Origin: a virus
Virus record (IMG/VR): IMGVR_UViG_3300048924_000100
Location: 1-64,000 of that record
DNA: 64,000 bases
Direction: 5' to 3' (one strand)
The notes under the pieces: generated by a model
What the model was told of the DNA's origin: nothing
The model's database searches: none
Seen by the model: only the letters and a program-made list of their open reading frames with translations
Translations under genes and position numbers: made by a program
Shown: positions 33,634-36,477 of the stretch, piece by piece
Layout of the letters: each line of letters starts with the position of its first letter
Numbering within the stretch: position 1 is the stretch's first letter

Positions 33634-36477
33634 TTAGAAAAGGGTTAGTGCGCTGTTGGTCATCTTGAGCGGACGGCCATTCAATTCTTCGCTGATATCC
33701 AGGGTCTCTTCACCAGTTACGTTAGCAAACGCCACGTGACCTTCCATGCGCCCCATCAAAGCATCCACCTGTTCTTTACTCCAGGCCAAGATGTCCAAGC
33801 TGCGAGTGGTGATGTTGAGTTTATCCCCAGTGTCCATGTCCAGCATCCGGAAGAAGCATTGAGCTGCATCTTGTCCGGTACGCCAGATCCTGCCTTTCAC
33901 TTGCCGCAACTCGTGTTCCCTGAATGGGGAATCCAACCCGATGATCTGGTTAGCCATCAACAACGGATAACCTTCCTTCAGACTGTTGTACACGGCCACC
34001 AAAGGATTGGTACGCTGGTCCTCACCAAACTTCTTGATGGTGGGTTCCCGGTCGCTGCTGTTCTCGCCATACACCGATACAGGCTTGTAACCCTGAGCGG
34101 TCAAGTAATCAACCGAGAGTTTCAAGGCTTCAACGTAAGAGGTAAAGATAACAGTCTTCTTCTCTACGTCGTCAATGTACTTAGGCAACTCAGCGTGAGC
34201 GATTAGATCCTTAATGGCATTGATACGTGCACGACCCAAAACGTTGCCCAGGGCTTCACCACGGATCTTCAGAGCCAGGTACTTAACCGCTGATTTCACG
34301 TTACGGAACTCAGCCAGCTCAGGACCCCGGATACCACGTTCGATATCCTCCTCTACAGACTTGCAGAAGGCACTGTCAGCTGCATCCGTGAAGTTGTTGT
34401 ACCCTTGGGTGCGGAACCGATTAACGACCGCCTTGTAGCGCTGTAGCTCGGCCAACTCTTTTGGGTGCTTCAGGACCGTGTGCTCATAGCGTTGAACCAC
34501 ATCGTTATAGAACACGATGAATTCTGCCATGTGTGCATTGTAGAAACGAACTCGCTCCACAATGTAGGTCTGCATCTCCAAACGAATAGCGTCCAAGGTG
34601 TACTTCTCCCCGTTAGGGATTTTAACCTTGATGATCTCGAACGGAGGAGGATCACCCATACCAGCCAGTTCAGGGATAGAGAACTTGCCACGACCGATAC
34701 GATTCGCCAGCAACGCGATAAGCGCAGGACGGTTACGACCATAGCTCGCCATGAAGAACTCTCTAGCGGGCTTGTCGAAGTGTTTATCGATAAGGCAGGT
34801 GATAGGGTAGATCTCACTCCCAAGTGCCTTCAGCGGCGTCCCAGACATCGGTAGCGCATCCTGGAACAACCCGTCATCCGCCAACTCAACCAATCGACGC
34901 GTTTGCTTAGACTTCATGTCGTTAAAGTTGTGAGACTCATCGACGATCAGACTAAACTGTTGCTTGTTGCGTTTCATGGCTTCATTAAACCATTTGCGCA
35001 AGTGGTCGTAGTTGTTACCCTGGAGGAACTCGTAGTGCACGATGTAGTAGTCGTAGTCATCGGTCAACAAACGACCGGATGTAGACGTCCATACGCGTGG
35101 CATCTCATGGAAGTGCTTGCGCATGTTACCGAGCCAGACTTCTTCCACGATGTTCAGAGGGCAGAGGATGATGCACTTGTTATCACTGACCAACGTTGAC
35201 CACATTAACGAGGTCACGGTGTTGTGTGTCACGATCCAGTTATCAACAATGTACAAACAGTCTTCACTGTCAATACTGATGCAGGCGGTTTCGATCTGCG
35301 GTTGTTGTTCGATAGCCACCAACTTGAGTTTGAGGTTCTCGTATTGATGTAGATCAACAATCTCACCTAACGGAACGCCTACCAGGCTGTCCACTAACCC
35401 GACCATGTCACGGTGTTTAAAGGTCACCTTGAACGAAGTGCCGAAGAGTTCCTGAGAAGCCACCCCTCCAAGACTCCACATGAGCTTCTGGAAGTTGGTA
35501 GCACCGTAGACGTTGTCCACAACCACCGATACGCCAGCCTCTGACAGATGACACCCTGACTGCTCGATCATGAGCTTAGCGATCTGGTGTCTTTCCCCGT
35601 AGGAGAGTTCTGTCACTGGGTCAGCCATATGTATACCAGCAGTCAGCAGACCGGTAGCAATCGTGAGCAAATCCAGATGAGAAGATGAGGTGTCTTCATT
35701 CACGTTACCCACCAGTGGGATGTGGTAACTGAACTGGTCGAAGTGATTGATGATGTCCCTGGTTGTAGTGACGTAGGTCTGGGCGACGATGTTACCTTGT
35801 TCGTCAACACCGGCCTCGGCCACTTCCCACAGATGTAGCGGGTGTGATTCAGCAGTACGGCCATCCTCAAAGGTAAACCGGAAACTCTCGGTAACACCTT
35901 GGGGGAAGTAACCCGTGATGTTGGCAACGTTCCCCTTGGGTCCTATCACCTGGTCACCTATCTTAAGGTCACCAAGGCGCTTCCAGCCACCCGGTACTTT
36001 AACCTGGGTGTTCAGGGGCATTGCTTTACCGCTACCTACTGCCGCATCGAGCAACAATCCTTTAAGGTGGTAGCTGGGCTTAATGATGGGGTACTGTTCC
36101 AGGAACTCACGTTGTTTGGGGAACGGTGCTACCTTGAACCGCTCCAGTCGTTTGAAATCAAACTGTTTGCCGATGGGGTTAACAGTGTCCTTAATCCAGG
36201 TTTCTGTTTCAAGCAGGTGCTTTAATTCAGCCAGCTCTCTACGACGACTACGGAGGTTACGAACCTTCAGCAACTCTCCCAGAACCAGATGCAGTTCTAC
36301 CAAGAAGAAGTTATGGACCTTGATGGTATCCCAGGTTTCCCTGCGGATCTGCCATTTGGTAATAAGGGAGCTGCTGTAGAACTTCTCAATGTCTCGTGCC
36401 AGTGCGCCGTATGAAACCCCTGTGATGTGAACGTATACCCCAGTTTGCTTTACAGCAACTGAAAATAAGTTGAACAT
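33634..36477 (-). CDS. SNF2/SF2 helicase interrupted by an intein
   Basis: 947 residues as translated, of which 268 are an intein, leaving a 679-residue helicase. Motif I is split: DAAVGSGK ends at residue 151 and Thr420 follows the intein. The other SF2 motifs are in place: Walker B VDESHNF (512-518), motif III MSGTP (544-548), VIFTSY, and motif VI QVKGRIWRTGQ (858-868), which is the SNF2-type arginine finger. The spliced protein should be an ATP-driven DNA translocase or helicase acting in phage DNA replication, repair or packaging. GGAGG lies 7 bases before the ATG. Without splicing the P-loop would be broken, so splicing controls activity. Confidence 0.9.
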   Translation of the reverse strand: MFNLFSVAVKQTGVYVHITGVSYGALARDIEKFYSSSLITKWQIRRETWDTIKVHNFFLVELHLVLGELLKVRNLRSRRRELAELKHLLETETWIKDTVNPIGKQFDFKRLERFKVAPFPKQREFLEQYPIIKPSYHLKGLLLDAAVGSGKAMPLNTQVKVPGGWKRLGDLKIGDQVIGPKGNVANITGYFPQGVTESFRFTFEDGRTAESHPLHLWEVAEAGVDEQGNIVAQTYVTTTRDIINHFDQFSYHIPLVGNVNEDTSSSHLDLLTIATGLLTAGIHMADPVTELSYGERHQIAKLMIEQSGCHLSEAGVSVVVDNVYGATNFQKLMWSLGGVASQELFGTSFKVTFKHRDMVGLVDSLVGVPLGEIVDLHQYENLKLKLVAIEQQPQIETACISIDSEDCLYIVDNWIVTHNTVTSLMWSTLVSDNKCIILCPLNIVEEVWLGNMRKHFHEMPRVWTSTSGRLLTDDYDYYIVHYEFLQGNNYDHLRKWFNEAMKRNKQQFSLIVDESHNFNDMKSKQTRRLVELADDGLFQDALPMSGTPLKALGSEIYPITCLIDKHFDKPAREFFMASYGRNRPALIALLANRIGRGKFSIPELAGMGDPPPFEIIKVKIPNGEKYTLDAIRLEMQTYIVERVRFYNAHMAEFIVFYNDVVQRYEHTVLKHPKELAELQRYKAVVNRFRTQGYNNFTDAADSAFCKSVEEDIERGIRGPELAEFRNVKSAVKYLALKIRGEALGNVLGRARINAIKDLIAHAELPKYIDDVEKKTVIFTSYVEALKLSVDYLTAQGYKPVSVYGENSSDREPTIKKFGEDQRTNPLVAVYNSLKEGYPLLMANQIIGLDSPFREHELRQVKGRIWRTGQDAAQCFFRMLDMDTGDKLNITTRSLDILAWSKEQVDALMGRMEGHVAFANVTGEETLDISEELNGRPLKMTNSALTLF
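35221..36024 (-). other. Intein (class 3-like) within the helicase Walker A motif
   Basis: 268-residue in-frame insertion between Lys151 and Thr420 of the P-loop. It begins with Ala, not Cys or Ser (AMPLNTQVKVPGGWKRLGDL, the block A layout), and ends VTHN before a Thr. Class 3 inteins replace the first nucleophile with a Trp-Cys-Thr triplet, and all three are present at intein positions W66 (HLW in block B), C248 (ACISID in block F) and T266 (VTHN in block G), with the last His267-Asn268. The middle (about 100-215) is a partial, degenerate LAGLIDADG-like region (ATGLLTAG, MWSLGG). Activity is inferred. Confidence 0.88.

Follow-up and report, generated by a model that had tools for sequence, protein, structure and literature searches.

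The 64,000-nucleotide window, by which we mean the whole stretch of DNA analysed, belongs to a virus record of 214,198 bp and carries on its reverse strand the gene for a SNF2-like helicase precursor, a homologue of phage EL gp166, PhiPA3 gp233 and phiKZ gp203 (the annotation of PhiPA3 gp233 itself notes similarity to phiKZ gp203 and EL gp166). Among named phages, Pseudomonas phage EL and its kin have the helicase genes closest to this one, and the source of the window is a jumbo phage related to phage EL. The Walker A motif of the helicase is interrupted exactly between its Lys and Thr (GSGK/T, the slash marking the insertion site). The features of the gene are as follows:

33634..36477, reverse strand: SNF2-like helicase precursor gene, 947 aa
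36025..36477, reverse strand: N-extein, residues 1-151, ending ...DAAVGSGK, as placed by alignment to empty-site homologues
35221..36024, reverse strand: predicted class 3 intein, 268 aa, AMPLNTQ...IVTHN, precursor residues 152-419
35986..36024, reverse strand: block A / N1, AMPLNTQVKVPGG, with Ala and not Cys or Ser at position 1
35824..35865, reverse strand: block B / N3, DGRTAESHPLHLWE, with H64 (B:10) and W66 (B:12)
35341..35724, reverse strand: endonuclease remnant, intein residues 101-228
35554..35601, reverse strand: degenerate LAGLIDADG helix, YGERHQIAKLMIEQSG, intein residues 142-157, with Ser156 at the catalytic Asp position
35242..35289, reverse strand: block F / C2, TACISIDSEDCLYIVD, with C248 (F:4, the class 3 nucleophile position) and Cys256 at F:13
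35221..35232, reverse strand: block G / C1, VTHN, with T266 (G:5), H267 and N268
33634..35220, reverse strand: C-extein, 528 aa, first residue Thr

The 268-residue insertion, its Ala1, its THN end and the residues W66, C248 and T266 all lie where a preliminary description of this DNA had placed them, and removal of the insertion leaves 947 - 268 = 679 residues, in agreement with the spliced length of about 679 residues expected there. With the insertion in place, the Pfam ResIII model matches the precursor with 20.7 bits (E 4.3e-4), and once the insertion is removed the match rises to 39.4 bits (E 7.5e-10) and spans the junction. The first Thr of the C-extein is the Walker A Thr and also occupies the +1 nucleophile position.

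Whether the interruption is foreign to the helicase can be read from its homologues. The joined extein of 679 residues aligns in one piece to the helicases of Joad, RisingSun, YC1, Miami, OBP and others, and in two pieces to those of EL, FishSpeaker, CF8, VP4B, PDCC-1 and others, with the interruption at the same GSGK/T in the loci read (GSGK/S in CF8). Joad, YC1 and OBP have no insertion at this site, so that its presence varies among homologous hosts; the preliminary description had held that conservation of these residues as part of the helicase fold would speak against an intein, and related helicases do without them. Conservation of the 268 residues in every EL-clade helicase seen might suggest a genuine subdomain of the helicase in place of an intein, but related insertions occur in other P-loop ATPases (e.g. 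terminase and a DnaB annotated as intein-containing), the insertion is predicted to take up an intein fold, and the empty-site homologues align without a break across the site, which refutes this reading and leaves its probability practically negligible.

The identity of the insertion comes from comparison with solved inteins, relatives and fold: no intein model of Pfam matches it, and Pfam and NCBIfam searches on the insertion alone returned nothing useful. In a phmmer search against solved structures all significant matches were inteins, namely 6riz (E 6.8e-9), a WCT-bearing, class 3-like engineered gp41-1 variant, 6bs8 (E 8.7e-8), the class 3 DnaB intein of M. smegmatis, gp41-1 (6qaz) and M. 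chimaera DnaB1 (6rix/6riy); MAP kinase matches in the same search are due to chance. A profile built from 11 sequences matched the same set of inteins. Neither of the two outcomes that, by the preliminary description, would have refuted an intein was observed. To 6riz, 6bs8 and 6qaz, the three best matches listed, the insertion aligned in register at both ends, which places W66, C248, T266, H267 and N268 on the expected positions of blocks B, F and G; the block F-G stretch matches weakly when taken alone and draws its support from this register. An AlphaFold model of the insertion (mean pLDDT 86.7) shows the Hint fold, and its Foldseek matches include PI-SceI, 6bs8 and 6rix. Relatives are present in 252 phage records, and matches in PHROGs to primase, terminase and helicase loader most likely reflect inteins within the family profiles and not host-protein homology.

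Class 3 inteins are defined by Trp at N3:12, Cys at C2:4 and Thr at C1:5 (PMC7891396), and a Cys-His-Thr triad is known in the M. chimaera DnaB1 intein (PMC7664689). The insertion has Ala in place of Cys or Ser at position 1, Trp at B:12, two residues past the block B His (H64-L65-W66, aligned to 6bs8 and 6riz), Cys at the F:4 branch-point nucleophile position (C248, aligned to the block F Cys of 6bs8), and Thr at G:5 followed by His-Asn and the +1 nucleophile (T266-H267-N268/T+1). When 11 orthologous inteins are aligned, Ala1, H64, W66, C248, T266, H267, N268 and T+1 do not vary. The alignment to class 3 inteins proposed earlier thus puts W, C and T in register with blocks B, F and G of 6bs8, and sequence, profile, fold and site polymorphism all support the class 3 assignment. 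The DnaB inteins 6bs8 and 6rix/6riy share both the signature and the Hint fold (TM-score by target 0.75-0.80) but differ in being mini-inteins of about 140 aa that lack an endonuclease remnant. PMC3196547 cites a report of efficient splicing by the class 3 Snf2 intein of Deinococcus radiodurans, which resembles the window intein in class and in its Snf2-named host.

One position departs from the usual pattern. At F:13 the window intein has Cys256 (35257-35259, reverse strand), and most relatives have His there. A His at this position is usual, not obligatory, in class 3 inteins. Among close relatives the residue is Cys, His, Lys or Ser, and the characterised class 3 intein AceL NrdHF also has no F:13 His yet splices (PMC7891396); given this variability within the clade and the AceL NrdHF case, Cys256 is not disqualifying.

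We therefore regard it as highly probable that the insertion is a class 3 intein, predicted to excise itself post-translationally from the helicase precursor, non-homing and inherited vertically. If it follows the route of the class 3 inteins already characterised, H64 and T266 would activate C248 for attack on the peptide bond that follows the Walker A lysine; the N-extein would then be transferred from C248 to Thr+1, and cyclisation of N268 would release the intein and leave GSGKT intact in the 679-aa helicase. Splicing of the window intein is thus predicted from its sequence, and it is reasonable to infer that the helicase is inactive until splicing has occurred. That splicing has instead been lost, so that translation yields a precursor that is dead or has some other function, is very unlikely: the replacement of the block F His by Cys, the dead endonuclease and a report that the class 3-like Arsp-FB24 Arth_1007 intein, which has no block F Cys, does not splice (PMC3196547) would be in keeping with such a loss, but the class 3 signature residues are all intact and invariant, and the splicing blocks and the helicase are both under strong purifying selection.

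The endonuclease region had been described as short and degenerate, and comparison with longer alleles bears this out. The inteins of FishSpeaker (L017), CF8 (L022) and PhiPA3 (L025) share the class 3 triplet and the same or an equivalent GK/T site (GK/S in CF8), but are 345-358 aa long and match Pfam LAGLIDADG_3; by eye these full-length alleles carry two LAGLIDADG motifs, the second intact with DTDG and reading LLQGLLDTDG. The inteins of EL, the window and their kin have lost the first motif, and at the second they show IEQSG in place of the LDTDG of the intact alleles. Every row of our alignment A1 has Ser at the position of the catalytic Asp, apart from EL, which has Val where the window intein has Ser156. 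The window intein accordingly lacks the two motifs with catalytic Asp that characterise a LAGLIDADG homing endonuclease, and Pfam finds no LAGLIDADG match in it; the AlphaFold model keeps one predicted alpha-beta-beta-alpha-beta-beta-alpha (LAGLIDADG-like) unit. Loss of the first motif together with substitution of the catalytic Asp suggests that the nuclease is dead throughout the EL clade.

The window intein is a new copy of a known element, since an orthologue is already present in the deposited EL helicase. The EL gp166 intein, which we take to be the InBase entry PP-PhiEL Helicase, lies in the same gene at the same GSGK/T site, has Ala1, the WCT triplet and the same deleted and degenerate endonuclease, and is 41% identical to the window intein over its full length; it differs in being 262 aa long against 268 aa and in having Lys at F:13 where the window intein has Cys. 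The site is filled in all 12 EL-clade helicases examined (the window, phage EL and 10 others).

In Nei-Gojobori estimates from six close relatives, the exteins had dN/dS of 0.054 and 0.069, the splicing parts of the intein 0.058 and the middle endonuclease remnant 0.135, figures that are imprecise since dS in many cases approaches or exceeds 1; for the pair with the window that is least saturated (L011, dS 0.75) the remnant gave 0.114. The splicing domain is under strong purifying selection and the remnant is under purifying selection as well. Mean intein dS was somewhat above extein dS in the same phage pairs (1.12 vs 0.74-0.80). The earlier suggestion of a decaying intein thus holds for the nuclease motif, seemingly dead across the EL clade, but not for the remnant as a whole, whose omega of about 0.13 speaks for constraint: the intein is endonuclease-dead yet not visibly eroding.

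Intein and extein identities are correlated among the 12 clade members (r = 0.95, the pairs not being independent), as expected under vertical inheritance. Intein and extein trees agree on the main supported groups and resolve neither the deep branching order nor that among the closest six. The data are most simply explained by a single ancient insertion that lost its endonuclease before the clade diversified and has been inherited vertically from then on. With the LAGLIDADG endonuclease disabled, the intein would have lost autonomous homing and would be passed on vertically in EL-like phages, and it may persist since loss of splicing would destroy the ATPase and precise deletion is probably rare. 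The phages form a well-resolved clade whose class 3 intein apparently lost its endonuclease before they diverged and then descended vertically, which makes the EL clade a useful test case for the persistence of non-homing inteins, and its natural F:13 variants (Cys, His, Lys, Ser) offer material for class 3 chemistry.

Persistence might also mean that the class 3 intein with its dead endonuclease is kept as a switch, with the redox state or the stage of infection governing helicase splicing, perhaps via Cys256 near the nucleophile. The presence of the intein in 12 of 12 clade helicases despite its predicted inability to home, the selection still acting on the remnant, the annotation of a homologous OBP helicase as virion-associated and the account, in PMC6195587, of the M. 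smegmatis DnaB helicase intein as an oxidative-stress sensor are consistent with such a role. We nevertheless consider it unlikely, as close relatives have Cys, His, Lys or Ser at the Cys256 position and fixation is also expected from the mere difficulty of precise loss. A broader form of the idea, that the non-homing Walker A inteins of the clade are splicing-dependent timers holding ATPases inactive until a given infection stage or virion entry, would cover the helicase and terminase inteins and, in most genomes, a second helicase; we find this quite unlikely too.

The other inteins that such timing would involve lie elsewhere in the same record, outside the window and on the forward strand:

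record 124,656-125,411, forward strand: class 3-type intein, 252 aa, at GGGK/T of the second helicase (locus L030)
record ~88.5-89.4 kb, forward strand: class 3-type intein, 315 aa, at QQGK/T of the terminase large subunit (locus L031)

Most clade members carry an intein at the second-helicase site. In two related phages, G004 and G007, no intein match was found at the second helicase and the frames are short (511 and 523 aa), so that this site looks polymorphic and is apparently empty there. The terminase intein begins with Tyr, where some sister phages have Met, Leu or Pro; the LAGLIDADG motifs of both inteins appear altered by eye, and phage EL has four intein places. In RefSeq, intein-bearing genes of different kinds, among them genes that GenBank names terminase and gyrA, are annotated as 'DarB-like antirestriction', possibly because the annotation was passed on via the shared intein.
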